From Psococerastis gibbosa (Eukaryota; Arthropoda; Insecta; Psocodea; Psocidae): a DNA stretch of 64,000 nucleotides. Below, piece by piece: positions 32,801 through 62,244 of the stretch. Numbering within the stretch: position 1 is the stretch's first letter; every line of letters starts with the position of its first letter. The notes under the pieces were generated by a model, which saw nothing but the letters and a program-made list of their open reading frames with translations, did not search any database and was not told the origin of the DNA. Made by a program: the position numbers and the translations under genes. The stretch lies in the NCBI GenBank assembly GCA_963971405.1, contig OZ020486.1:9571419-9635418 (forward strand). Reading direction: 5' to 3'.

Positions 32801-34485
32801 GAGCTTAGCGCAGAGCTGCCCCTCGTTCTCATGCATCCGAAGGTAACTCGACTACAGAAAGATGCTTTAACATCTCACTGCTGAGATAGGGACAAGGTTA
32901 TTTAGGATCCTAATTATTGCATGTCAAAATGGGATTTCTAAGCGTGTTTATACACCATGCGGGACTCGAACCCACAATCTATACATTTCGGGGGCATCAT
33001 GTTACTGTTTCCACCAATGGTGCGCCTTATCCAGGTATTAATTGATTTTCTATATGATGGTAATCGAGAAGATTCATATTGTTAGACAGATTAGCACAAC
33101 TAACTATCGAACTGAACCGATCTGTGAGCTACCCAATCGCATAAGGCGTTGTAGGTATTTTCATTTTTCTTGACCCACTTGTAATCAGTCGAGTGTTGCT
33201 GTCCGAATTTTCAAAGTGTACAGAATTATTTTAAAAGGAAGTTGAATCATGTGGCCTTTTGAACCTAAAGTTTGATTTGTCTAAAAAGGTACGTACGTGC
33301 AATCCAACAAATTATTTGGCCACCACTTGTCATTTAACACGATTGATTCCGAAATGGCCGGGTTGAGATAAATGAAACTATCAATTTTTAAGATGAAATT
33401 GACTTAGGCTGAAGGGGCAACCTCATGAGAATATTAAATCCGAACGTAGGCAATCAAGAAAAATCTAGACAATCTACAACAAAGTGCCTATAAGTCAATT
33501 TTATGTTCAAATTTATTAATTAATTGTAAAACCGGATCTGGAGCTGCCTAGGATACATGGTGTGTCTTGAAATCATATCAAAGTGGATGGGATACTTGCA
33601 ACGATAATGAAATAGAATATATGTATATTATGTAAGCTAACTATGGCTGATAGCGGCGAAACGTCAAAGGAAAGAATGCGAAGGTAGGTAGGGTAGTAGT
33701 AGGGTTACAACATAAAAAAAGTAAAACAAGCTGGATGGGCATCCGCAGCGCATGCATGAAGCAGATAAAAGTAGTTCCCTAGTGTAAGCGGGTGGTTCTC
33801 TCCATAAGCCCAACACGTCACTATATAGCTACTTAGATTGCGAGTTAAGCGCGCAAAACTTACTGCGCCGGTGTTCTGTTGTCAGCCCTGCCTGTTGACT
33901 TGCTTTTAATTTCACGCTATTTTCACTTTTTTATGTTGGAACCCAACACCTTGGCAACGTTTCCTTTGCCATTTCCCCCGACTTAAGATTATGGTTATTT
34001 TAATATCGTTGGGGCTGACCACGGAATCGCTGGCGCAAATGTTCTACGCACATGACCTTGGGTCCCTGTCGGTCTTACTAGCTTAATTAATTATTATATA
34101 ATATAATATTATAAAAAATATATAAAAAATTAGTGCCCCTAATGGTGAGTACCTCCCGCTTTGTCTCGGTCACTACTGTCGAATCGTTGATTAACTGAGC
34201 TGCGAATGCCTGTGCCATTTTACCCGCCTGGATACTTGCGTCCTTTACGCCACCTTTAATACCTGCATTTACCTCCTGCAACCACGAATTAAGTACTGTC
34301 TGTAAGCTTAAACATATGTAGGCCTACTCAACTGCTAACCTTATGAACCGCAAGGCTTACTTACAAATGAAATCCTTTTGTTGCAGCCCACTAATGTGAA
34401 TTTCACAGTAAAGGCCGACAGCCAGGCAGACACAGAAACATTCAGAAATGAGACCATGGACCAAGATGGCTGTGATGCCGAATAA
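26899..34485 (+). CDS. Arr1: Visual arrestin (Arr1/phosrestin-2 type)
   Basis: Eight exons (26899-27007, 28494-28684, 29246-29424, 30048-30183, 30521-30678, 31669-31812, 32713-32842, 34387-34485) join in phase to 381 aa, close to the 364 aa of Drosophila Arr1. Arrestins bind light-activated phosphorylated rhodopsin and stop G-protein signalling in photoreceptors. Family landmarks: [10 protein letters not shown] with the phosphate-sensing lysines, [48 protein letters not shown], the lariat loop [15 protein letters not shown], and VSYSVKVKL. The short acidic tail ([11 protein letters not shown]) resembles the Arr1 tail. Beta-arrestin features such as a long clathrin-box tail are absent. The genomic copy is intact; the introns carry SINE, MITE and palindromic repeats. 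Expression would be expected in the eye. Confidence 0.93.
28930..29165. repeat. MITE copy related to 33701-33953
   Basis: Shares, in opposite orientation, the blocks GGGAAATGGCAAAG, GGGTTCCAACATAAAAAA, CAACAGGCAGGGCTGACAACA and GCACTGCGGATGCCCA with the element at 33701-33953. Lies in arrestin intron 2. Confidence 0.65.
29459..29655 (+). repeat. tRNA-like SINE with poly-A tail
   Basis: Body CGACTTCGATGGCCAGGTGG with an A-box-like TGGCCAGGTGG (29477-29487), then CTTTACACGCCATGCGATC and a conserved tail TTAAATTGTTTGTATGCGAT ending in about 23 A residues. Nearly identical to 41544-41740; diverged copies lie at 17310-17470 and 45357-45530 (reverse). Inserted in arrestin intron 3. Confidence 0.75.
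30884..31120. repeat. Rearranged palindromic-family copy in arrestin intron 5
   Basis: Holds GCAGTAGAATCCGGGAT, TTCCAAACGTTTCGTCAAC, CTGCAAAGGCTTTCACGGCC and a mini-palindrome around AACCAGTAGAATC / GATTCTACTGGTT, followed by the TTGTATCTCGGAGGCTCAGCAG end. It appears to be two copies joined head to head. Confidence 0.65.
31997..32420. repeat. Two direct partial copies of the GGTACACACGGAC MITE
   Basis: GGTACACGCGGACGATTCGAACG near 32000 and GGTACACACGGATGGTTCGAACG near 32240 start two head-to-tail partial copies; both contain GAAATGGGCTTGG- or ACAAATGGGTTG-like interiors and the GTGCGGTCGGCTTTC block. Lies in arrestin intron 6. Confidence 0.5.
32945..33030 (-). repeat. tRNA-like fragment (SINE remnant)
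   Basis: The minus strand contains GATTGTGGGTTCGAGTCCCGC, a T-arm with a good B box, preceded by an arm resembling an A box (TTGGTGGAAACAGTAAC). The acceptor stem does not pair convincingly, so a functional tRNA is unlikely. Lies in arrestin intron 7. Confidence 0.45.
33701..33953. repeat. MITE with GGGTTACAACATAAAAAA termini
   Basis: Left end GGGTTACAACATAAAAAAAG and right end CTTTTTTATGTTGGAACCC are inverted. The interior contains ATCCGCAGCGCATGCATGAAGC and TGTTGTCAGCCCTGCCTGTTGA. A second copy is at 28930-29165; a piece at 34150-34270 resembles its flank. Lies in arrestin intron 7. Confidence 0.65.
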
Positions 34486-41208: not shown

Positions 41209-44200
41209 TTAAACCTGGGGGCCGCCGGGCTTGGGGAGCGGCCGCACCAGGTACAGCTTCTCGCCCTGCTTGTTGGTGTAGATGGGCGCGCGCTGGTAGT
41301 GATCCACCAGTTGGTCGAGCGTGTGGAACTTGCGCTGCCCGATGCAGTAGAGGGCGCCCTCCACGTGCACGCGGAAGTGCTTGTTTCTGCCTGGTGCTTT
41401 TAACGATACCGAGTAGTCGCCAACCTGGTAAGACACAAAGCCGTTAACGCATTTTATTTATAGAAAAGGTCCGAGAATATAGCTAGAGGAAAAAATAGAG
41501 TGTAACGCCTTGCCTAACCTGGTAATATGGTAATAGCATGAGCCAAATCGACTTCGATGGCCAGGTGGTAACGTGCTTGCACTTGTGCGAGTCTTTACAC
41601 ACCATGCAGTCGGAGACGGGTCGTACTCATCACGGGTAATAACCTACAGAGGCGACTGAAAAGGTCAATTGGATACATTCATTAAATTGTTTGTATGCGA
41701 TTTATCTTTTTATAAAAAAAAAATAATAATAATAATAATTTGAATGTTTTGTCGGAGGCTCCGCAGTAATTGACATCCGAGATACAATCTTAGAAGTCTA
41801 CGCAGTGCTACTGAAGATGTCGACGAACGAAACGTTTGGAAGTACGATCTCAGATCGACCACGGCCTATCATCCCAAATTCCACTGCTTGATCATGTGAC
41901 TCCGTGAAAGTATTTGTAATTATATTATATAAGGAAAGGTTGACTTAACATGGTTTCAACAAAGTTTGCTCATGCTATGACCAAATGAAGACGGAAAAGA
42001 CCAGGTGATGCCTAAAGGCGTTACAAGAGGGAATACGATGAAGAGGAAAACCAAGGAAGAGATACATGATGAAGACCTTAGAGGAACTGTTGAATAATCA
42101 AAAGTGGAAATGTGGAGGCTCACGTATCATACCCGGGCAACTAGAGCTAATGATTATGATGATGCTGGCCATAGATATAGTACGTGAGTCATATTTTTCT
42201 TTATATGCCTCTTCTACCGAAGATTGGCGAGCGTCGTGGCACTTTGGACCATGGAGACTGCTGTCAGAAAAGGGAAGTCATGCTCTTGCGAAATCAGTGC
42301 TCGGGTTTTTCAACCAGGATCATTTTCTTCTGCCGAGAGCCCTCAGCCTTCTATCTTGGAGATCGTGTCCATGATGCTGAGGCCCTGAGGCGAACGGATA
42401 CAGAAGCCAAGTTGCTGCGGATGGTTGAGAAACGGAATCATAATCATAATGTCTGGAAGGACGTTTTTTATGAACCTAGGCCTACTTATATCGGTCCCTT
42501 GTCTACTGCCAACGACCCCATGGATTTCGGACATTATTTATATTGTTTCCGTAAGAATTTTGGGCTATTGGCAAACTCGAAGTCAACTTACACCGGCTAC
42601 AAGCGATAATGGACAAGCTGTGACGAGCTTACCATTGGGGCAGTGCAACAGGTGGAAGCATGACTTAACCATGTATAGAAGCGCGTCTGAGAAACGGAAA
42701 CTAACATACTTCGGCCATGTGACGCGGAACGAAAAATATCAGCTTCTGTGTTATAATCCAACGGAAGACAGAAGGACCGAGGGCTACCGGCAGAAGAGCA
42801 TCCTGGTTGAAAACCGAAAACCCTGCGGCAGTGGTTTGGCAAGAGCACGACTTCTTTTCAGAGCAGCAGTCTCCAAGGCCAAAATTGCCAATAGAAGCGC
42901 GTCTGAGAAACGGAAACTAACATACTTCGGCCATGTGACGTGGAACGAAAAATATCAGCTTCTGTGTTATAATCCAACGGAAGACAGAAGGACCGAAGGC
43001 TACCGGCAGAAGAGCATCCTGGTTGAAAACCGAAAACCCTGCGGCAGTGGTTTGGCAAGAGCACGACTTCTTTTCAGAGCAGCAGTCTCCAAGGCCAAAA
43101 TTGCCAATCTTCTCTAGCAGAGGCATAGAAAGAAGAAGTACCCCTAATGAACTTACGTTAGTTTCGCTGTCACGTATAAGGAAGTCGCCATCATGGCCAT
43201 GCTGATTGAGTATGGTGTCGCATTGGGCACGCGTGATGCTGCCGTAGTACCAGCTCTTGCCCACCAGGTGCGGCCGGTCCATTCCATCGGGTGGCCTGCG
43301 GTCCGACGAGTCGGCGTGTTCACCGCCCGAGCCACTCCCGCTGCCACCAACGCCGCGCTCCCGGAACGGCTGCGTCAAATACTCACTCAATTCCTGTGTC
43401 AGAGGCATCGCGTTAATAGATGGGACAAAGGGGGACAAGTATGGATAAACAGAAATAATAATAGTAAACAAAAAGTAACCCAGTGTAGGTTGGGATGTTA
43501 GAGTGGAGGTTAGGACGTAGGAAGAGAAAGGATGAATAAGACGGCAGCTCCTAATGCCACTGACATACTAAACTTGCTTGCAATTAATATAATCCAACAC
43601 CATTAAGCTATGCACGCAAAGACGTTCCAATAAACACGGCTAGAAACGATCCAAGAACCAGCTACCATGTTGGACTGTTGTTTCAAAAGAAAATGGACCC
43701 CCGGACCGCCACTTTTTTTGTTCATGTACAAAGCCACATTTCTCATGAACTTTCAATCATAGTCATAAATGAGACATAATAAAGTAGAAGAAATGTTCCT
43801 CTTCACTTTAATATATGTACCATAACACCCAGGGGCGGAAAGTTGGCGGGGGCACGGTCCGTCTGGCCCCCGGCAGCTCCTTTTGAAGGGGGGGGGGGGG
43901 GCCCCAGCCTCAAGCATTGTAAGACGTGGTCCATGGAGGCCCCCCTGTTTGCAGCAAATGAATCTAAGCATTCCTTTGTTAGCTTATTTGTAAAATCTAC
44001 AGCTTACTTTACTACTATTACAATGCGTAAAACCCTACTATTTTGTACCCCCGAGCCGCCCTCTTTGGTTAAATGCAACCTTTAAAGAATACACTAGATA
44101 CAATTGAGTTCTCTAGAAAACAATTTACACTAGACAGAGTCCCAGACGCCACAGCCCCAAAAACTCCTGGCTACGCCCTTGAGGGCCTACAAGTATCAAA

Positions 44201-47200
44201 CGCTATAATTTTTTGTTAATCTGTGATTCCGTGCTAGGGGAAGCCTATGCATGAAAAACATCCTTACGGAAAGCCTGATGTAGTCATAAGGTCTACTTAG
44301 TATAGCCCCCGCCATCGTTCTAAAACTTTACGCCTCTGATAACACCAATTGGCGAAAGTTTTGGAACTGCTTCGCTCTGACATCTTCAATGACCGTTCAC
44401 TTTTACAAATCACTACATTATGACGTACATCGAAGCGTAGAAGAAGATTCTTTCTAGTTTATGACACCTCATTTATGGCTCTGCCAAAATAAGTCAAAAA
44501 ATGATTACCCAGTGAAAAACTGAGACACTCACCTGTAAATAATTTCTAGGAACAAGTCCGATTTGGCCTTGAGAATTACGCGCTTTATACCATTCGGGAT
44601 CGGACGGAGGGCGATCGAGTATTTCGAGACGCTCCCCCTTCTCGAACGAGAGTTCCTGGTCGTTGTTGGAGGAGAAGGCGTAGAGGGCGACGACGACGTC
44701 AAGCACATTCTCCGCTATGGCGTACGTGTGCAACCCATCTTCTGGGTCGCCCTCTTCCTGCGTGTAGTTGCTAGGAAACCAGCCCGAGGACGAACCACTG
44801 GCTCCTCGCCACCAACCATCGTTACTTTTCTCTAAGATGTATATCCTCGAACCCTGTTAATAGCATTAAAGATTAAAATTATAATTAATAATAATTTGCG
44901 CAAAGGTGAAAACAATTGATTATACACTTGTAAGAAGTGACAAACATTTTTTTTTCTTCTCCTTCAAGTCCTTTATAGAAAGGAAGATTTGAAAATTATC
45001 ACAGAAACGGTATCCGAACCTGAATCTCCACCCTGTCCAACTCATCCCCATATCTTCGGATGATTGAATGCTCTACAAGATGCAGGTCGGCTATCATATA
45101 AGTCATGTCTACCTTTTAAATTTTGCAGATTTTGTTTTGTAGGGGGGGGGGGGGGGTTAGAGAACTGAGACTAACCAAGATCCAGTCTCCGATATCTTAT
45201 TGTTGTGGCAGATCAACCATCATCGTTTCTCATCTTACCCATGGCTATAGGTAAATCATATTTTTTCAACCATAATACGATAAGCACATGCAGAAAATGG
45301 ATAAAAATGGAGAAGCTGAGAATCATCTTTTTTTACTTTTTTCTTTTCTTTCAAATGAAAGGTTAATCGCGTACAGACAATTTAATGAATGTATCCGATT
45401 AACCTCTTCAATCGGCTCACTAAGTAACCTTATAGGTACTTGTCTCGAGTTGACACGTCTCCGATCGCAAGGTGTGTAGAAACTCGCAAAAGTAGAAGCA
45501 CGCTACCACCTGGCCACCGAAGGCGCTAATCTAAATTTGCTAACACTAAGACTACGGTACATAAAACGCGTTCTCTTCGTAAGCTGAAGCTATGTAAACT
45601 AGGACAGACAATAGGATGTTCCAGGTTCCTGTCGTCTTTCATATGGAGTTGACTTTAGATCACCCTCCGGACTACCCTTCTACCCCTGTCGACGCCATTG
45701 CCACGGATTAAGGTTAAGGCAAGTGCATGATACAAAATGCTACGAACCTTAGTTAAGGCTAATTCATCCGGCTGCTGCGCCTGGTAGTTATACTTCACGA
45801 CAGCCATGCCTATGGCCTCGGAAGGATCCGCCGGAAGCTTCCTCTGCATTGAGGGCGAGTCCACGGTGCGCGAAGGCGAACTGTTCGAGTGGGGAGGAAG
45901 TGTCTTCGAGCCAGACCCCTTCTTAACCTTTTTCTTAATACTGCAATGTGAAAATGTTGAATACAACGTATAAATCACTCCGGCACGGTAACCTTTCACA
46001 ATCGTAGCTACCGGTACTCAATAACTGTCTCCCACACTGTCAGTTCCCATCAGATCTCAGGAAGTATTTACATGTTCTGGCACGCTCTTGGCAATCACAG
46101 CTCGGATGTACACGGCTTTCGAGGCCATTGATCATATTACAATGGTTCAGGATAGTTCTCTGACGTTTCGCGGAACAATCTATGAATAGTTACTATAGTA
46201 TAGTGTACAGGTTAGTTCCCGGCATAAGGTAAGTATTTTTTTTATTGCATGAAGACGGGGTCCTAAAAAAGTCATGTTGTAAGAAGATGAGTGTGTAGGT
46301 AAAAATGAATGAAAATGAAAACTGTGAATTGGGTGCGGTGACAACGAATTCTCCCACAATGCTTTTTATAGGACTTAAGGTAAGTATAGAGGACGTGGGT
46401 AATATTTGATAAATGTGAGCTAATTCGCGCCGGTGTATGGCTTTTTCTTATCCATAGGCTTTCTACCCCGCAGCCGCGTTATCTCCATACTAAAAGAAAT
46501 TGTTTCCTTCTATATCAACCTGAAATATCATGAAATACTGTAAAAATAAAATACAGTACATGTATACGTTTCTTCCGACAGAGTTACTAAACGATGACGA
46601 AATTCAGTTATACATAAGGTGTAATGAACATTATGAAGGGAGTAGAACAGCGGAAGGAGATGATTTCGATGGGCCCAACTCATTACCGAAGAGATTGAGA
46701 CATTTGTCATATCTGTGGACAAGCTTTTCAATACCCTATTCAAAGAAAGTTGCCGCCAATGAATTAAAGTAGTCCTTGACGTTGGTTTGAAGGTCCTCAT
46801 TCGTTTGAAAGCGCTTCCCACCAAGCCATGTCTTCAGTTCAGGAAAAAGATGAAAGTCACTGGGTGCTAAGTCAGGACTGTCTGGCGGATGATCGAAAAT
46901 GTCCCATCCCAATTGTTCGAGAAGCCGTTGAGTTGCTTCAGCAGTGTGTGGACGGCCATTGTCATGGATCAGAACAACTCCAGCGGTCAGCTTCTCGAAC
47001 AATTTGGATGGGACATTTTCAATCATCCGCCATACAATCCTGACTTAGCACCCAGCGACTTGGTATGAAGCGCTTTCAAACTAAAGAGGACCTTCAAACC
47101 AACGTCAAGGACTACTTGAATTCATTGGCGGCAACTTTCTTTGAAGAGGGTATTGAAAAGCTTGTCCACAGATATGACAAATGTCTCAATCTCAATGATT

Positions 47201-51894: not shown

Positions 51895-52724
51895 ATTATG
51901 CGACTGAAAGCGCCTCTAGAGAAAACAGTCGGCTGCAGATGCTACAAAATTACCAAATATAATTATAGGAAAGACAGCTTCATTAGACTGCCACACATGT
52001 CATAGGGAATTTTGTAATTAAAAACAAGGAGATGTAATTTAATATTTTGCTAAATGAGGTTTCCAACACTTTAACCACTCAATAATGACACTATTATAAC
52101 AAAAATAGCACCGGCATTTTATAAAAAGAGACGAAAACTGTCAGACAAGTAAAATCGTTCAAGTTTATCGGCCATGGAATATTACGAATCAAAGGTCTTC
52201 GACAAGGTTTTCATGTGTTTTAAAACTTTCATGACTTTGCATGCTTCTCAATAACATAAAAAGTCAACGCAGTGTTTTAAAGCACTCCATGTAAGCAACA
52301 TTTTTGCCAACTCTCATTTGATTGTGACAAAAATACAAAATATTTCGAAAATAAATTATATTTAGACATAATTTTTATATTTTTCTATAGTTAGTTTAAT
52401 TAAAACAGATTATTCCCCGTGATTTTTCTTACTACAGAGGTCAATCTGCAGAGTTCATGTTTTTATAACAGCTGGGAAGAGAAAATAGTGTGCCGTATAG
52501 TGTATACTTCCAACTCAACGCTGAATAGGTAATAAAAATATTTAATACTATTTGTAGGCTATGTCACGGTGTAAATTTACGTAGAACAATTTGCTTTCTT
52601 ATAATTCTTTATACCGTGGTCTGTGTTTTGCCGGTAAGTAAGCAAATCTTGTGCTTGAGGGCGGTAGTTTCGCTGACACGCCGCCAAGCAATTTTGATGT
52701 TGTGGGGTGGCTTTAGATTTTAGA
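51895..52724. promoter_or_regulatory. Shared upstream region of Nck and TyrRS (head to head)
   Basis: The start codons of Nck (minus, 51894) and the TyrRS locus (plus, 52725) are 830 bp apart on opposite strands, so both promoters must lie here or just beside it. No TATA box or known motif is clear. Mostly AT-rich and unique-looking. Confidence 0.45.
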
Positions 52725-52985
52725 ATGAGTTCTTTATCATTTGAAGACATTGATAAGCATCTAGAGAACTACAGCTATGTACTAGGATACACGGCAACCA
52801 AATCTGACGCTGTTTTGTATAGCCTTTTAATAAAGCATGACGCAATATTGAAAGAAACTTCATACTTCCATATAAAACGATGGTTAAAGCATATAGCAAG
52901 CTTTACGAAGCTGGAAGTGGAATCCTTCTCTGTCGCTGGGGAAATTAAAGACGTTCCCAGTTGGTTGCGCGAGTTAAAAGGCGAG
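52725..52985 (+). CDS. GST-C/eEF1B-like first exon of the TyrRS locus
   Basis: The exon begins with ATG at 52725 and reads 87 codons before GT at 52986. The central block ([24 protein letters not shown] followed by [14 protein letters not shown]) follows the pattern of GST-C domains in AIMP3/p18, eEF1B-beta and the N-terminal extension of some aminoacyl-tRNA synthetases: helix with YL(x)GY, then xADxxLY, then xxRWxxHI. Read through without splicing it would stop after 94 codons. The 8 codons of the next exon before the usual TyrRS Met are open. Confidence 0.7.
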
Positions 52986-55900
52986 GTCAGTGTCGTTTAT
53001 AGTTAGCTAAGTGCTGGTGCATTGCTTTGCATGCCTCTCTAACAAGATAGTAATAGTAATCATCCCAAATTATATGTTTGCAAAAAAAGAATAGGAATAC
53101 CGTCCTCAGCCACATGGTATGCGATATTCCTCAAGTATATCTGAAGTTGATGTTACAGAAACGAAAATACCCAATGGTATGCGGTATGGTGTGCCCACCG
53201 CTTAGAGGTGTAGAAATATTTTATACGCCTTCCTCAAAACAGTTTTTATGTATTAAAATGTCTCACGACTTGAGATATCTCAATTCGAGTATGCAGCGTG
53301 TATGAGTTGCTTATAGGATCCTACAAAATCAAACCCCCTCCTAAAAATGGGCGCCCCAAGACTTATTGCCCAGCCGCTTTAAAATAAAAGTCAATAATTT
53401 TTTCTTGTTTATTGTAGACGTTCATTAACAGATTGTCAACCATGGATTGGAAGAAAAAGAAAGAATTGATCACACGTAACCTTCAAGAAACTCTAGGAGA
53501 AGATAAACTGGATGTGATACTACAGCAACGTGACTTAAAAATCTACTGGGGAACTGCAACTACAGGCAAACCCCATATCGCCTACTTTGTGCCTATGTCA
53601 AAAATTGCCGACTTTCTTCAAGCTGGGTGTGAGGTAACAACATGCATTTTTATGCATTATAATTATAATAATAATAATAAGTATTATTATGTACATGTTG
53701 TTATTCACTCGCTTGACGAGTCCGAACGTAGTAATTAGTAAACTGAGACGCATTTCCAGCAAACCCATTTGAATTGCATGGGCGGGCTTAAAACAATTTT
53801 TTTGACAGATGTAGAAGGCCTATCTTAATTTAAATGCCCACGCCTTCGTCTATTCTTCCTCATTCAGGTCATGCTATATTTGTGGTGATCAAACTAGGGT
53901 TGGCTTGGGGGGGGGGGGGGGGGTGGTGGAAACGTCGGGGTGCGCACGATTTTCAACAAAAAATAGGCCTCTTTCGGCCGCATTATTATCTATTTAAAAA
54001 AAATCAAACTACTTCAACTATACAATATGGGACTACGACCATTTACACATAAGTCATGCGACGCGCATTATGTTTTTAAGTAATATTTATTGAGTTAGGC
54101 GTTGTCACGTTAAACTATCGTCTGTAAACCGACTTTACAGACCAACCAATTTTTAATATTACCATTGCTTGTTTTATAGGTAACAATCCTCTTTGCCGAC
54201 CTCCATGCCTACCTTGATAATATGAAAGCACCCTGGGAACTGCTTGCTCTTCGAACGCAGTATTACGAAAATGTGATTAAAGAGACCCTAAAATCAATCG
54301 GTGTGTCAATAGACAAGCTTAAATTTGTTAGAGGAACTGAGTACGAACTTAGCCGAGAATACACTCTCGACGTTTATAGATTGACGACTCTTGTCACGGA
54401 GCATGATGCCAAAAAGGCTGGCGCTGAAGTTGTTAAGCAGGTTGAACACCCCCTGTTGTCAGGGCTCTTGTATCCCGGTCTTCAAGCTCTTGATGAGGAA
54501 TATTTGAAAGTTGACGCACAATTCGGAGGTGTTGATCAACGGAAAATTTTCACTTTCGCGGAAAAGTACTTACCGGCTTTAGGCTACGAAAAGCGGATTC
54601 ATTTGATGAATCCCATGGTGCCGGGTTTAACTGGCACTAAAATGTCATCATCTGAAGAAGACTCGAAGATAGATCTTCTCGATTCGTCTGACGCTGTGAA
54701 GAAGAAATTAAAGAAGGCATTCTGCGAGCCTGGTAATATAACTGACAATGGAGTGCTTTCGTTTGTAAAACATGTCATCTACCCGGTGTTTTTGACAGAC
54801 TCGAAATTCGTTGTCTCCCGTTCTGAAAAGTTTGGCGGAAACATGGAGTTCGAAAACTATGAAGATATTGAGAAGTCCTTTGCTGAAGGGGCGCTGCATC
54901 CCGGTGATTTAAAATTGGCTGTAGAAGGCTACATAAACCGACTTTTGACGCCGATAAGGGATGCATTTCAAAGGCCAGAACTGAAGAAATTGACGAATGA
55001 TGCGTACCCAGTTCCTGGGAAGTCGAAAGGGGGTAAGTACCATAAATTTCATACTTTTGTTGGTACTTAATGACAATTTCAAGTAAACATCATGCCGGAC
55101 ATAAGCACAAGGCGAAAGATATAACTGCAAAGGCTTTCACGGCCGGAGTCGAATGAGGAACCAGTAGAAGAATCCGGGCTGATGGGCCGTGGTCGAAGTG
55201 AAAGAGAACTTCCAAACGTTTCGTCAACATCTGCGGTCGACATCTTCAGTGGAACTGCGTAGACTTCTTAGATTGTATCTCGGAGGCTCAGCAGCGACTG
55301 TGAGTCGCTGCTGTCGCTGCAGTCGCTGCAGTCGCTGCTGAGCCTCCGAGATACAATCTAAGAAGTCTACGCAGTTCCACTGAAGATGTCGACCGCAGAT
55401 GTTGACGAAACGTTTGGAAGTTCTCTTTCACTTCGACCACGGCCCATCAGCCCGGATTCTACTGGTTCCTCACAAGGCGAAAGTTTAAAAAAAAAACGTT
55501 TCTACTGTTACTTCACTTTTACGTGTTCGAGGTTGAGACTCGTAGTTTCTGGGTCCAGTATTCTGCCATCCTGATTCTGATTGACTGACCTTGGTGCACT
55601 TTCCAAGGTGCAGGAAGTGGTGCAGAGGGGGGATTGAAGCAGGTGGCATTTGTCTTCGGTCACACCGCACTTAGTGTCCTCCGAGGCCAATTGGCCCCAT
55701 CTACAGGTAGCTCGTAACCTCCTGGTTGGCGCCACGGAGTCGTTGGTGGTCTGACTGGGAATCAGGTTGGTGGTTTGTGGGAAGTACTGTTGATAAGTCA
55801 GTTCACAAATTCCGTCCTGGTTACTCTCCGGTAAAGTACGTTCCATTAAGTTACATGAGGAATACATGAGCTGTCAATGGCGGGGAGTATGCTATTGGAG

Positions 55901-58900
55901 TGTTCTTGGATATTGCTGGCGCTTTCGACAATACAAAATTCAGCACAATGGTTTCTGCTTTACAGAAGCGAAGAATATGCCCTTCACTGACGCTTTGGGT
56001 GGAGAGGATGTTAAGCCAGCGCAATGTAATCAGCCGTAGAGGCGAAGCCATGGTAACTGCCTCTGTGAGACGCGGATGTGCGCAAGGGGGAATTATTTCA
56101 CCGCTGCTTTGGTGCCTCGTTGCTGATAGTTTGCTGAAATTACTGACAGAAGCTGGCTTTTATGTACAGGCGTACGCCGATGACTTCGTGATAGTAGTGG
56201 AAGGAAGGTGGACGATTTAGAAGCCGTCCATCGAATTCCTACGAAAAATAAAAAAGCTGTAAACCCAATAATGGTTCATCTCACATCGGTGAAAAAACGA
56301 AACTCTATTATTATGAACAGGAAAGTGGATATAACTCAAGATCAGATCATTGGCAATGGCTGTGACAAGAAAGTCTATGTAAACGAAAGCCTCACTAAAT
56401 TCCACAAGGAGCTTCTTTACAAATCTAAGAATGTGGCCAAATCGCTCAACTATGATTTCGCTTGGACTACAAATGGGAAAATCTTCATAAAAGAAAATCA
56501 GTCTGCAAAGGCAATTCGAATTAGAAGTGAACTTGATCTTGATATTCTGCAAAACTAGAATTGTAAACATGCCATAACTAATTACCTATTATCAAGCAAT
56601 AAACATTTTCTCCCCACTAACTCGTATGATAATGTGACCAAACCTCTTAAAGAGTCATTAAACCATTTTTATTCTAAAAAAATTTCTTCACTAAAAAATA
56701 AAAATGTCATCCATAATAGAATAATTGGCAACTTAAATAATACGAAAATCAATCATAATAACAGAGGATTGACAGTTCTTCACCTCAATATCAGAGGTAT
56801 AAAAAGTAATTATTATGAACTACTCGCACTCGTTCACGAGGTAAACCCTGACATAATTGTACTCTGTGAGACTTTCCTAAAAAATTATGAAGTGCCATTA
56901 TTTACAGCTGAATTGGATGATTACAACTACTACAGCTACTGCAGGCCAAAGGGCAAAGGGGGAGGGGTCCTTGTATTCGTTAAAACCGATTTTCATAGTG
57001 AAGTCCTGAATATCACAGGGATTAATGAGTCAATCGAACATGTTTCTGTGAAAATCCAGATCTCTGGAAATACGTGGATAAATATCTCAGCTGTATATAG
57101 ACTCCACAAAAAAACTGAGGATTTTCTAGAGGATCTCGAAATCATTCTTAATCATTTACGTGGAAAATCTATTCTAGTGGGGGACATAAACATTGACTTA
57201 CTCAAACAAACTAAAGCCTCAATTAATTATCTCAATACAATGATAAGCTGCGGTTACAAACAGTGCATTACGACCCCTACTAGAGAACATTTTAAAGTAA
57301 ACAAACTACAAAAGTCATGTATTGACCATGCGTTCATTAAAGCCCTAGATATTGCTGACTCAGCAGTCATACACGTCAAAATCTCGGATCATTACCCCAT
57401 ACTCTTAGAAGTTAGAATTCCAATGAAAAAAAAACTGACTTGTCCCATCTACAAAAAAATTAATTATGATGAAAAAAAGATCAATAACTTAGTGGAAAGC
57501 ACGGACTGGCGTGCTCTGCAGCGGCCTTCAGCAGAAGAAACCTACACTAACTTTATAGAAACCTTTAAAATAATATATAAAGAAAGTGAAGTAGCTAACA
57601 ATAAAAAAGGTAAACCTGAACCAGTGTGGTTCACTGAGAAGATAAAAAAGGAAATAGCAAAACGAGATAACCTATTTAAACTTTGGAAGCAGAACAGTGG
57701 TAATGTTCTGAACAAGAATCTTTTCATAAAACAAAGAAACAGGACAAAGAAAATTATAAATGGAGCTAAATTTAAGCAAATTCATAAAGCATTCTCGAAT
57801 GTTAAAAATGACAACAAAAAACCTGGGAATTGATTAACAGAATTACAAAAGGTAATTTAAATAATGATATTGATGTCCACTTAATGAAACATTTCAATAA
57901 AGAAGGATTGAAACCGATCCCTTTGATTTGCGACATGTTCCTAGATACTTTTATATCAGAAATATTGAAAATATCAAACAAATGCCCCAATAATATTACC
58001 GAAATCAATAAAAAACCGTCAGTAGACTCTACTGTAGAACCAACTGAGGTCAGTGATTTTAAATGGAAGCTAACCAACATTGATGGCATAAAAAAGCTAT
58101 TAAAAAGCTGTAACCCAAGGAAATCTCCTGGATCCGACATGATTCGTATTAAAGACCTAAAAGATAATGACATGATTGCCGATACAATTTCTTGGATAAT
58201 TAACAAATCCTTGCAATCTGGTATTCTGCCGGATGAAATGAAATTGGCCATAATTAGACCCATATATAAAAGTGAACAACATAATAAATGCATAAATTAT
58301 CGTCCAATAAGCATTTTGAATTCCGTAGAAAAAATACTAGAAAAAGTTGTTCACATGCAACTCACAAACCATATTAAAAAACACAATATAATAGCATGTG
58401 AACAGTTTGGATTTCAAAAAAATAAGAGTTCCGAAATGTGTTTAGAAAAGTTTGGGGAACTTATAAACCAGAACTTAGATAAAGGGATACAAAACCTGGT
58501 AGCGTTCGTTGACTACTCTAAAGCTTTTGATGTTCTCGATCACACTGTTATACTCAACCAACTAGAGAGTATAGGTTTTAAAAACACTGAATTACTCTGG
58601 TTCAAAAACTATCTGACAAACAGAAAAGCAACTGTACGAATCTCCAAAGTCAATGGTAAATTTAAAAGGTGGAAATTTGGAGTGCCCCAAGGGAGTTTAC
58701 TCGGCCCAATACTTTATATACTGGCTACTAATAAATTAATTAAGTACCTCAGAAATTGCCAAGTGTTTATGTTTGCTGATGATATGGCCATTGTAGTGTA
58801 TGAATCTGACATTGAAAAAGCGTGCTTGATTATGCAAGAAATACTGAGAAACCTGCAATGTTTAACTCACGACTTAGGACTCACTATAAATCACAAAAAA

Positions 58901-61900
58901 ACAAAAATAATGCATATTAGAAGTAAAGGGCCCCGTCACTCATCTCATAAATTCATCTTTCACGACCATGATTGTCTACATAATAATAATAATATCTCGT
59001 CCCTCTGCCGCTGCAAGGAGCATGTTGACATGGTTGAAGAACATGTATACCTGGGCATCACCATAGATAGTAGATTTTCCTTTCAATCACACTTTGATAA
59101 AATAAGTAAAAGACTGAGAGCAGCAGGAGCTGCTCTTTACAAATTGAAGGGCGGTGTATCGTTCAAAACTCTAAAGACAGTTTATTTTGCTATGATCCAA
59201 TCTGTTATCTCATACGGCATCTCAACCTGGGCCAGAGATGACAACAGCTACATAGACTCATTGCAGAAGTTGCAACACCGTATAGTTAAAAATCTATTAT
59301 CCGCGAGATACTTAAAAAAGTACCAAACCGATAACTTGTTCACGCCATGTGACATACTCTCCCTCAGGAATTTACTGAATTACAAAATAATCTTAAATAA
59401 TTATTATAATCCAACATTTACTAATACAAATATTCCGTACTACCCTACGAGAAACTGTCATAAACTCCCAATACCAGCAACCAGAAACAAGTATGGTGAC
59501 CGTACCAACTCAGTGTTTGTATCTAAATTATTTAACAGGATGCCTGATTACCTTCAAAATAAGCAGCGTATAGGTCAAGTCAAAAAATTAATTAAAAAAT
59601 GGCTCCAAGTCGTATAGAAACTAATAATTCTCTCTTTCTCTCTTATACCTTTACAATTAATTTACCTTATTTACCTTATATTACATATAATTACTTATCT
59701 ATATATAATATAATTATGATGATTGTTCAATTAATTGAATTAATTATTATAATTATATTATAATCTACTTTTTTCCTTATAATATACCTGTGTACCTTAA
59801 TTTTTAAATTCAAACCCGTAACAAACGGGAAACAAAAATAGTTATGGCATGTATTTGTTTGGGCCTAGGGCCTCATTGGGTGTTGCACCCGGAGGTACCT
59901 GCGCCGACACATAATTTGTTCAATTTTATTTTTTTCAATATATTTCCCTCACATGGTGGATTAACCAGTGAGGACAAAAAAAAAAAAAAAAAAAAAAAGG
60001 TGTATCAGCACTATATTTGAGAGGATGCAGTGTGCGCTTGATTTAGTAGAATCGTGGTGCATAGAACAGGATCTCGCAGTAAGTGCAGAAAAAACAGAAG
60101 CTGTGTTATTCACAAGAAAACGGACTCCCAGTGATTTACCTAATATTTCCATTTTTTCTGAGGAAATTACCATGGGTACAACCGTGCGCCATTTGGGCGT
60201 TATACTGGACAGCAAAATTTTGTGGAACGCACACACCGCAAACATCCGCAAGAAAACAACTAATACGATGTGGCTGCTCAGACGCACTTGCGGTAGTACT
60301 TGGGGAATGAAACCTCAAGTGGTTATTTGGCTATACAACACTATGATAATGCCAATTATCACATATGCTTGCGTTGTATGGTGGCCTCGGTCAAAACTAA
60401 AAACCGAACAGTTGGCAATGAGCAAACTACAAAGACTGATATGCATAGCTTGTACAGGAGCTATCAGAACCACGCCAACTGCTGCTATGGAAGCGCTGCT
60501 TTATCTGCCTCCCTTACATCTAACTATTCAAAAAACCGCTCTTATAGCGGCCCTCCGTATTCAGAGAAATCGTTTATGGCTGGGAAGTTCTTTTTATACC
60601 CGCCACACGAAGATTATTAGAGAAGAAAGACCGACCTGTCCGGAATTGGAGATGCCCTGGGACCGCATTCTCCCTCAGGTCCAGACCGACTCCGCTGCAG
60701 CGCCAATTATACCCACCAGAGACGAATGGCGCAATACTGATAGTGATGTGTTTGTTGAAAGTGAAGAAACTTGGTTTACAGATGGTTCACTAATGGGCGG
60801 TTTGGCTGGAGCAGGAGTTTACTGCAAAAATCCGCCCATTTCTCAGTATATACATCTTGGGGAGTACGCTTCGGTTTTTCAAGCAGAAGTCATTGCGATA
60901 AGCGAAGCACTTCACTTCTCAATGTCAACGAAAAGTCAAAGCTGTGTCGTTTACTCGGACAGTCAAGCCGCTCTACTGGCCTTAAAAAATCCAACCGTCA
61001 CTTCATCAGTGGTGAGAGACTGCAAAGACAAGCTGAGAAAACTAATGCGAACTAAAATTGTAAATCTCGTTTGGATCCCTGGTCACCAAGGTATGGACGG
61101 TAACGAAGAGGCAGACCGATTAGCGAGAATGGGTTCTGCCCAAAAACCAATTGGCCCGGAACCAATAGTACCGATACCAACGTGCGCTATCAAGAGTGTG
61201 CTTAAGAGGAAGACACACGAGAGGTTTGTCACTGAATGGAAGGCAGCTTCACTACGGCAATCAAAAGTTTTTATTCGGGAGCCCAACAATGGACAGGGAA
61301 ACTAATGGGCCTCCGAAGGAACTGCTTGAGAATTGTTGTAGCAGCACTCACAGGACACGGCCCATTCCGCAAACACCTGCAGCAAATAAAGGCCATCCCT
61401 CCTGGCGACATCAGTTGTCGACACTGCGGTGAGGAGGAGGAAACGGCAAAACACCTCCTGTGCGACTGTCCAGCGATGTGGCGTTCACGAAAAGACTACT
61501 TTGGGGCTGCTTTCATCTCCCCGGAAGACGTCATGAGCCATCCTACCAGATCGGCGGGCTTCATAAGAACAATGCAACTATTTTAGTGCAGAAGTGATAC
61601 AGGGTGTTCAAAGGGTTTTCCCGAGCCTACGTCTCTGGCCGCTTGCGGCACCTGTTTGACTCATAGACATAATAATAATAATAATAATAATACACGAGGA
61701 AACCACAGAATGTCACAATCAATTACATAACTGGTTCTCAACTCACAATCAGAAGGCTTGGCCTGAACGCCTGATTTATTTAACGTCTGGGGTTAGATGT
61801 CAATTTACATTACTTACGTGTTTAGTGCTGCAGGTATACAGACAGGAAGCCACACCTACTACCATTGCCGTTGTTCAGCAAAAGAAGGGGCGCCAGTCCT

Positions 61901-62244
61901 CAGCCAATTCAGGGAGCACCAGACGGAGTAATTTGATAGTGACCATTTGCTTTCTTTGTTTTAACAGGGGATGGAGGGAAGAAAGCTGAAGAGGAAGTCA
62001 CGCCCGCTCGTTTGAACTTAAGAGTCGGTCGTATTGTGGAAATAAACCCTCATCCAGACGCGGACGCCCTCTGTGTGGCGAAGATTGACGTAGGAGAACC
62101 GACGCCTCGCACGGTTGTTTGTGCAAACACCAGTTTTGATACCAATGATCAACCCGTGGGACGGCTCGTTGTTGTACTGTGTAATCTCAAGCCAGCAAAT
62201 ATGCGGGGCGTGGAATCGGCTGGACTTGTGCTGCAAGCCGCGGG
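52725..62244 (+). CDS. Cytoplasmic tyrosyl-tRNA synthetase with putative N-terminal GST-C-like domain (3' end outside window)
   Basis: Class I synthetase that charges tRNA-Tyr in the cytoplasm (TyrRS, YARS1 orthologue). Exons 52725-52985, 53418-53633, 54180-55032 and 61968-62244 join in phase; the last exons are missing at the window edge. Exon 1 (87 codons) encodes a GST-C fold segment like eEF1B, AIMP3 and other multisynthetase subunits ([29 protein letters not shown]). It ends in a GT donor and is phase 0 with the next exon. Usual TyrRS sequence starts at Met96, in good context. Then come the HIGH-equivalent PHIAYF (about 139-144), [25 protein letters not shown] and KMSSS (about 313-317). 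Exon 4 opens the EMAPII-like tRNA-binding domain ([30 protein letters not shown]). A 6.9-kb intron is filled by nested LINEs. If exon 1 is not used, the protein would have ordinary TyrRS architecture. Confidence 0.88.
55106..55483. repeat. Near-perfect palindrome of the GGCCGGAGT family with 13-bp target duplication
   Basis: Arms of about 160 bp, from CTGCAAAGGCTTTCACGGCCGGAGTC to the TTGTATCTCGGAGGCTCAGCAGCGACT centre and back. The full right arm ends at the GGATTCTACTGGTTCCT element, so the terminal 30 bp of the left arm is unpaired. The centre carries reiterated GTCGCTGC units. CACAAGGCGAAAG occurs at 55106-55118 and 55471-55483, bracketing the element as a 13-bp target duplication. Inserted in TyrRS intron 3. 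Confidence 0.85.
56634..57833 (+). CDS. LINE endonuclease domain (first part of ORF2)
   Basis: About 400 codons with an AP-type endonuclease: LHLNIRGI (Asn), VLCETFL (Glu), AVYRL (Tyr), VGDINIDLL (Asp/Asn), SCIDHAFI and SDHYPILL (Asp/His). Cleaves target DNA to prime reverse transcription. It ends at TGA 57831-57833 just after an A run; the reverse transcriptase frame continues one position out of phase, consistent with a single-base deletion in that run (57816-57822 region). The deletion could be real or a sequencing error. Confidence 0.85.
   Translation: MTKPLKESLNHFYSKKISSLKNKNVIHNRIIGNLNNTKINHNNRGLTVLHLNIRGIKSNYYELLALVHEVNPDIIVLCETFLKNYEVPLFTAELDDYNYYSYCRPKGKGGGVLVFVKTDFHSEVLNITGINESIEHVSVKIQISGNTWINISAVYRLHKKTEDFLEDLEIILNHLRGKSILVGDINIDLLKQTKASINYLNTMISCGYKQCITTPTREHFKVNKLQKSCIDHAFIKALDIADSAVIHVKISDHYPILLEVRIPMKKKLTCPIYKKINYDEKKINNLVESTDWRALQRPSAEETYTNFIETFKIIYKESEVANNKKGKPEPVWFTEKIKKEIAKRDNLFKLWKQNSGNVLNKNLFIKQRNRTKKIINGAKFKQIHKAFSNVKNDNKKPGN
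57830..59617 (+). CDS. LINE reverse transcriptase domain (second part of ORF2)
   Basis: 595 codons. Linker, then finger motif [27 protein letters not shown], motif [13 protein letters not shown], motif [13 protein letters not shown], motif C with the catalytic [24 protein letters not shown], then the [11 protein letters not shown] and [12 protein letters not shown] tail. The order and C-terminus fit the CR1/L2/Daphne group rather than Jockey or I. All RT catalytic residues are intact, so only the frameshift upstream and the 5' truncation disable this copy. Confidence 0.9.
   Translation: MINRITKGNLNNDIDVHLMKHFNKEGLKPIPLICDMFLDTFISEILKISNKCPNNITEINKKPSVDSTVEPTEVSDFKWKLTNIDGIKKLLKSCNPRKSPGSDMIRIKDLKDNDMIADTISWIINKSLQSGILPDEMKLAIIRPIYKSEQHNKCINYRPISILNSVEKILEKVVHMQLTNHIKKHNIIACEQFGFQKNKSSEMCLEKFGELINQNLDKGIQNLVAFVDYSKAFDVLDHTVILNQLESIGFKNTELLWFKNYLTNRKATVRISKVNGKFKRWKFGVPQGSLLGPILYILATNKLIKYLRNCQVFMFADDMAIVVYESDIEKACLIMQEILRNLQCLTHDLGLTINHKKTKIMHIRSKGPRHSSHKFIFHDHDCLHNNNNISSLCRCKEHVDMVEEHVYLGITIDSRFSFQSHFDKISKRLRAAGAALYKLKGGVSFKTLKTVYFAMIQSVISYGISTWARDDNSYIDSLQKLQHRIVKNLLSARYLKKYQTDNLFTPCDILSLRNLLNYKIILNNYYNPTFTNTNIPYYPTRNCHKLPIPATRNKYGDRTNSVFVSKLFNRMPDYLQNKQRIGQVKKLIKKWLQVV

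Follow-up and report, generated by a model that had tools for sequence, protein, structure and literature searches.

The window analyzed here, a 64,000-nt stretch of the barklouse Psococerastis gibbosa, carries a tyrosyl-tRNA synthetase (TyrRS) gene whose features are collected in Table 1, and our searches took in both this window and the 409-Mb genome. The encoded protein has the hallmarks of a cytosolic animal TyrRS, namely a class Ic catalytic domain, KMSSS and an EMAPII-like C-domain. It matched Pfam tRNA-synt_1b at 3.5e-66, and its best PDB match was cytoplasmic TyrRS at 2.7e-139. A human TyrRS query aligned over residues 8-527 in five pieces, taking in the EMAPII region, the last two of which lie at ~64108 and ~66523, beyond the window; the gene therefore looks complete. 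The TyrRS/TrpRS Pfam family gave eight genome matches. Two of them, the top-scoring one included, fall in this gene, and the remaining six (on C15, C2 and C1) are presumed to be TrpRS and mitochondrial enzymes.

Several other features were recorded in the window and the genome. Divergent from TyrRS, ORFs at 42917-46017 (minus strand) were read as SH2 and SH3 sequences resembling an NCK/Dreadlocks adaptor. A tRNA-Ser (CGA) at 32951-33023 (minus strand) was the sole match in the window both to Rfam at the gathering threshold and by ARAGORN. Within TyrRS intron 3, a long inverted repeat (hairpin) was found by eye at ~55155-55480, adjoining the retroelement-like ORFs. The mitochondrial contig (C68; L013/L021/L022) has a psocomorphan barklouse gene order, is 74.7% AT and, between trnM and trnV, carries a tandem repeat at about 7.7-8.1 kb. 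COX1-like pieces in the nuclear genome are many (43 matches listed, one of which is the mitochondrial contig itself), including a near full-length COX1 in two pieces at C14:11085363-11086704, with 40 other places besides. These pieces point to frequent insertion of mitochondrial DNA into this nuclear genome.

Table 1. The TyrRS gene (window positions) and the two related GST-C exons (contig positions)
Feature	Position	Strand	Description
TyrRS exon 1	52725..52985	+	ATG and 86 codons; EF1-beta/CysRS-type GST-C half-domain; ends in phase 0
TyrRS intron 1	52986..53417	+	432 bp; GTCAGT...TTTATTGTAG; one AATAAA at 53383
TyrRS exon 2	53418..53633	+	Linker TFINRLST (8 codons), usual TyrRS Met, N-terminal catalytic part
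TyrRS exon 3	54180..55032	+	Remaining catalytic domain with KMSSS motif, anticodon-binding domain; matched best by PDB chains of cytoplasmic TyrRS
TyrRS intron 3	55033..61967	+	ORFs of retroelement type, read as endonuclease, reverse transcriptase and RNase H
TyrRS exon 4	61968..62244	+	Beginning of the EMAPII-like domain; two more matching stretches past the window end
ThrRS GST-C first exon	C2:19391093-19390842	-	84 codons; ATG; phase-0 donor
ValRS GST-C cassette	C13:2662826-2663125	+	100 codons; phase 0-0; GC 60%, GC3 70%

The sequence-only reading of this locus had proposed that the gene opens with an 87-codon GST-C exon, and this exon is present as described, with an ATG, an open frame and all of the signature residues. 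The phase-0 junction that it placed at 52985/53418, with eight open codons before the TyrRS Met, likewise held, with a donor GAG/GTCAGT at 52986 and an acceptor TTTATTGTAG/ACG. Exon 1 would add 95 residues (87 plus the linker of 8) ahead of the TyrRS Met, which itself has a good context (CAACCATGG). Joined, exons 1-4 form a single open frame of 535 codons consisting of 87 GST-C residues, 8 linker residues, TyrRS and the start of the EMAPII-like domain. By themselves, eight open codons have a 68% chance expectation. Using approximate weight matrices, we placed the exon 1 donor at the 52nd percentile and the exon 2 acceptor at the 48th percentile among 21 inferred introns. These introns were inferred automatically and at least two are visibly wrong (the TyrRS exon 3 donor and one CysRS pair); they were kept in the percentiles, where they could only flatter the tested sites, and slightly. 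When compared with all such dinucleotides in the window, the donor ranked in the top 1.1% of GTs and the acceptor in the top 1.5% of AGs.

Searched alone, exon 1 matched Pfam Arc1p_N_like (PF21972) with E = 2e-4 and 22 bits, under the curated cut-off of 27 bits; the joined TyrRS protein likewise scored under this cut-off (E = 0.0027, 18.4 bits). The match to Pfam GST_C was weak (0.1). In the PDB, the best match to exon 1 was AIMP3/eEF1E1 (E = 9e-4), with EF1-beta at 0.18. The GST-C match starts at exon 1 residue 5 and the frame is open for just 9 codons 5′ of the ATG, so that the exon comprises GST-C sequence but no thioredoxin-like GST-N half. Window DNA 52500-53420 matched itself alone in the genome and is therefore outside any recognizable repeat.

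When the 87-residue sequence was used as a query over the 409-Mb genome, we obtained four matches including itself. Two of these, at C13:2662934 (41%, E = 0.0085) and C2:19390893 (35%, E = 0.0094), have modest values, as single-sequence E-values; the fourth was weak (E = 0.5) and lies in a 500-residue frame that we read as a pentapeptide-repeat protein. The first two were initially guessed to be CysRS and eEF1B. This guess was ruled out by the flanking exons, which are those of ValRS (C13) and ThrRS (C2); moreover, the CysRS-family matches map to C14 and C1, and those of the eEF1B exchange domain to C3, C13:40.9 Mb and C1. The chance of both matches hitting a synthetase gene in its sense orientation is ~4e-7, assuming 20 genes of 25 kb. 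The relationship is reciprocal, as the two best non-self genome matches of each GST-C exon are the other two. Reverse searches with the ThrRS and ValRS exons gave E = 0.006 and 0.038 with one query and 0.019 and 0.039 with the other, and the search yielding 0.006 and 0.038 also lists four matches at E 0.2 to 1.2. At the thresholds used, we found no further GST-C exon of this type in the genome, although the search scores best candidates only, exon by exon, and further copies could escape it.

The three exons share 15 invariant columns, and each ends in phase 0 at a good donor (52nd percentile for TyrRS, 90th for both ValRS and ThrRS). On ThrRS, the exon lies 2.1 kb 5′ of ThrRS exon 2 on the same strand. 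ThrRS exon 2 has a phase-0 acceptor and no Met before the TGS domain, hence the ThrRS GST-C exon looks constitutive. Across ThrRS intron 1 and 3 kb upstream, no rival first exon was found that is open from an ATG, ends in phase 0 and has a donor scoring at least 8 bits; at a donor threshold of at least 4 bits, there are five alternative first exons in ThrRS intron 1, some of them within a retroelement-like ORF. On ValRS, the cassette sits between the catalytic and anticodon-binding domains, within a phase-0 intron that has ...KPANKS on one side and GGAVRSPMDNW... on the other. Since both of its ends are in phase 0, the frame is kept with inclusion or skipping, and the cassette is possibly alternatively spliced. 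Its acceptor is weak, at the 14th percentile, with 11.9% of window AGs scoring equally well.

These relatives allowed an independent test of exon 1 with a profile built from the ThrRS and ValRS exons only, with the TyrRS exon left out. Among 2063 window ORFs, this profile picked out the TyrRS exon at E = 2.9e-9, with a runner-up at 1.1. The real TyrRS-exon protein scored 34.6 bits and none of 5000 shuffles exceeded 12.0. The ValRS exon (28.7 bits) and the ThrRS exon (27.4 bits) pass the PF21972 cut-off that the TyrRS exon fails. Over the whole genome, Arc1p_N_like gave eight matches, with ValRS, ThrRS and an eEF1-gamma-like protein at C3:33.485 Mb above the cut-off. The TyrRS exon ranked fourth (E = 0.10), followed by four weaker matches that, by our reading, include eEF1-gamma, EPRS and AIMP3. 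With this homology and, independently, the recurrence of the module on two further synthetases, the earlier proposal of a GST-C/eEF1B-like extension in frame with TyrRS stands, and we regard a GST-C half-domain in frame with TyrRS as very probable from the genomic sequence.

To place the module among GST-C types, we compared it with the N-terminal GST-C half-domain of EF1-beta, by which we mean human EEF1B2, named eEF1B-alpha elsewhere (PMC7160314, PMC10452860). Against the PDB, a profile of the three exons placed 5dqs_D, the EF1-beta N-domain, first (1.7e-9) and AIMP3 next (1.1e-8), with ordinary GSTs and EPRS from 0.001 up. The ThrRS exon alone matched 5dqs_D at 1.3e-7 and the ValRS exon alone at 1.8e-5. 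As a group of three, the exons thus show EF1-beta/CysRS-type similarity, whereas the TyrRS exon singly prefers AIMP3, as noted above. In a tree of 11 rows and 81 columns, with MetRS, AIMP2 and Arc1p left out, the three exons fell in one clade with human CysRS and with EF1-beta of both human and barklouse. The other clade was made up of AIMP3 of both species together with EPRS, eEF1-gamma and one further GST of the barklouse, and the split between the two had a support of 98/99. Branches are long and the EF1-beta/CysRS/synthetase clade is without internal resolution.

Single domains were also used as queries. With the human CysRS GST-C domain, all three genome matches were the ThrRS, ValRS and TyrRS exons, with E-values over the three of 1.8e-4, 0.004 and 0.04. 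The barklouse's own EF1-beta retrieved its own two exons, then the ThrRS exon at 1.1e-5 and the TyrRS exon at a nonsignificant 1.35, and the ValRS exon was unlisted. With human AIMP3 as the query, the protein at C3:33.485 Mb ranked first, followed by the TyrRS exon (E = 0.17) and then by an exon belonging to the AIMP3-like gene. Introns split the own EF1-beta domain (SYITG/YQPS) and the own AIMP3 domain, whereas the synthetase GST-C exons are uninterrupted, which suits the spread of an already intronless exon.

Candidate partners for such a module are encoded in the same genome. By our reading, eEF1-gamma lies at C12:16327640, AIMP3-like exons at C2:5725880 and the EPRS GST domain at C1:20648582. 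The protein at C3:33.485 Mb (L037 1441-2139, minus strand) is a second eEF1-gamma-like GST protein (PDB 5dqs_A, E = 5.3e-28) that terminates in KKKSGKKK and a stop; it apparently stands alone and is a possible partner of the GST-C modules. The barklouse CysRS begins with a Met of its own, MSKRQQPEWAPPPTK, and a profile search of 20 kb (10 kb upstream) revealed no GST-C exon there, though one that is intron-split or farther away could escape.

We therefore favor, with a probability of roughly 0.6, the reading that exon 1 genuinely serves as the first coding exon of TyrRS in at least one isoform and bears a mobile docking half-domain of the EF1-beta/CysRS GST-C type, most likely docking on eEF1-gamma. 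In the barklouse lineage, the module would have been placed on three synthetases, at the N-termini of TyrRS and ThrRS and as an internal cassette of ValRS. It most likely acts like the EF1-beta N-terminal domain and like the domain that human CysRS includes by alternative splicing, and would dock on the GST-like domain of eEF1-gamma. Such docking would tether TyrRS, ThrRS and ValRS to eEF1B/eEF1A and could favor the transfer to eEF1A of tRNAs charged with Tyr, Thr and Val. By analogy with these systems, we give docking on eEF1-gamma about an even chance. We infer inclusion of the extension in mRNA, its folding, its partner and channeling, and the architecture suggests that a further group of synthetases has become attached to the machinery of translation elongation. 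More tentatively, and at somewhat less than even odds, a single mobile CysRS-type docking exon, not found on the own CysRS, may have spread to TyrRS, ThrRS and ValRS, giving a lineage-specific elongation assembly with at least three synthetases on eEF1B, possibly also the C3:33.48 Mb protein, and with the ValRS copy as an alternatively spliced switch.

The most probable of the alternative readings concerns where most TyrRS translation begins. A promoter in intron 1 could supply most of the protein from the exon 2 Met, leaving the GST-C form as a regulated isoform of minor weight; human CysRS, in which the domain is alternatively spliced, offers a precedent (PMC10813123, PMC9166799). Because TyrRS retains a Met in good context in exon 2, such an isoform switch is quite possible, and the ValRS cassette can similarly be skipped in frame. 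On the other hand, exon 2 has an ordinary-quality acceptor 24 bases 5′ of its Met, which would be superfluous for a transcript starting within either intron 1 or exon 2, and ThrRS exon 2 lacks a Met altogether. We consider this alternative a substantial one, if somewhat short of an even bet. Unlikely, by comparison, is a real exon that tethers TyrRS, together with ThrRS and ValRS, to the classical multisynthetase complex through the GST domains of AIMP3, EPRS, MetRS or AIMP2. The preference of the TyrRS exon for AIMP3 in the PDB (9e-4), its second rank with the AIMP3 query and the presence of AIMP3-like and EPRS GST domains in the genome are all consistent with this tethering. But the tree parts the three exons from AIMP3, EPRS and eEF1-gamma, the three-exon profile and the ThrRS and ValRS exons prefer EF1-beta, and the exons are without the GST-N half that the GST domains of the multisynthetase complex carry wholly or partly. 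The sequence-only reading had left both eEF1 contact and the multisynthetase complex as possible functions. Since the exons group with EF1-beta and CysRS, away from AIMP3, EPRS and eEF1-gamma, the former is favored and docking on eEF1-gamma is likelier than the latter, the AIMP3 match of the TyrRS exon notwithstanding.

Two further explanations would detach exon 1 from TyrRS, and we find both highly improbable. If exon 1 were a separate small gene, it would have 93 codons, end at the TAG at 53004-53006 and use the AATAAA at 53383 for its own poly(A) site; indeed, the ORF (52698-53006) runs six codons beyond the donor to a stop and the AATAAA is present in intron 1. However, ~0.5 AATAAA are expected in 432 bp anyway at the window density of 1.19 per kb, and a separate gene fails to predict homologues with good phase-0 donors within or ahead of the ThrRS and ValRS genes. 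Spliced-leader trans-splicing is not known to occur in insects, which also speaks against a separate gene. An operon resolved by such trans-splicing, prompted by the AATAAA near the acceptor, was set aside because the mitochondrial gene order indicates an insect. Alternatively, exon 1 could be a nonfunctional relic, a duplicated GST-C exon stranded near TyrRS. Codon statistics leave room for this reading, as they have no discriminating value here (-0.02 for exon 1 and -0.05 for the true exon 2). The open frame, the conserved core residues (the 15 invariant columns), average splice sites and unique DNA all argue against a relic, as does the recurrence of the association at three synthetases.

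The module bears on which synthetases join elongation-factor complexes, and why; the listed carriers of GST domains are few. In AARS Online 2024, these are CysRS, GluRS-E, MetRS and ValRS, with Tyr and Thr not among them, and for mosquito synthetases a GST-like domain is reported in MetRS (PMC8665550). No title or abstract opening in the open-licence literature searched names a GST domain on TyrRS or ThrRS, and relatives in public genomes are quite possible. Because the listed carriers are Cys, Glu, Met and Val, and the GST domain of ValRS was suggested to be confined to deuterostomes, TyrRS and ThrRS with a GST-C domain and ValRS with an internal cassette look new within this literature. If the favored reading is true, three synthetases with one docking module would be a natural rewiring experiment that tests selection for channeling of aminoacyl-tRNA to eEF1A. 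It would also be a case of a docking domain that spreads in the form of a phase-0 exon, with two of its three carriers off the AARS Online list.

Among known systems, the TyrRS of Toxoplasma is part of a MARS complex and has an N-terminal extension in which no GST-like domain is recognized (PMC3930741, PMC10813123). The predicted N-terminal extension of the barklouse TyrRS differs in its GST-C similarity. The GST domains of the multisynthetase complex (AIMP3, EPRS, MetRS and AIMP2) and of yeast Arc1p have in common with the barklouse exons the GST-C fold family and Pfam Arc1p_N_like; AIMP3 and EPRS differ in occupying a separate branch of the tree. In deuterostomes, an N-terminal GST-type domain ties ValRS to eEF1B in the eEF1H complex (PMC4394549, PMC10452860) and was suggested to be restricted to that group (PMC4394549). 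That is a full N-terminal GST domain, whereas the barklouse ValRS has an internal GST-C half-domain cassette; with a human bait, we found nothing like the deuterostome domain over the 13.8 kb that precede the first ValRS match. Another counterpart is the EF1-beta N-domain in 5DQS, where it is in complex with the eEF1-gamma N-domain (PMC7160314); it is the best match of the three-exon profile. It differs in that the own EF1-beta domain is intron-interrupted, whereas the synthetase exons are intact and have no nucleotide-exchange domain after them. Lastly, human CysRS (CARS1) has an alternatively spliced GST-bearing form that is said to interact with eEF1-gamma (PMC10813123, PMC9166799). The barklouse differs in carrying the module on TyrRS, ThrRS and, internally, ValRS, with none found in the 10 kb searched upstream of its own CysRS; what the two animals have in common is the same type of half-domain near a synthetase N-terminus.
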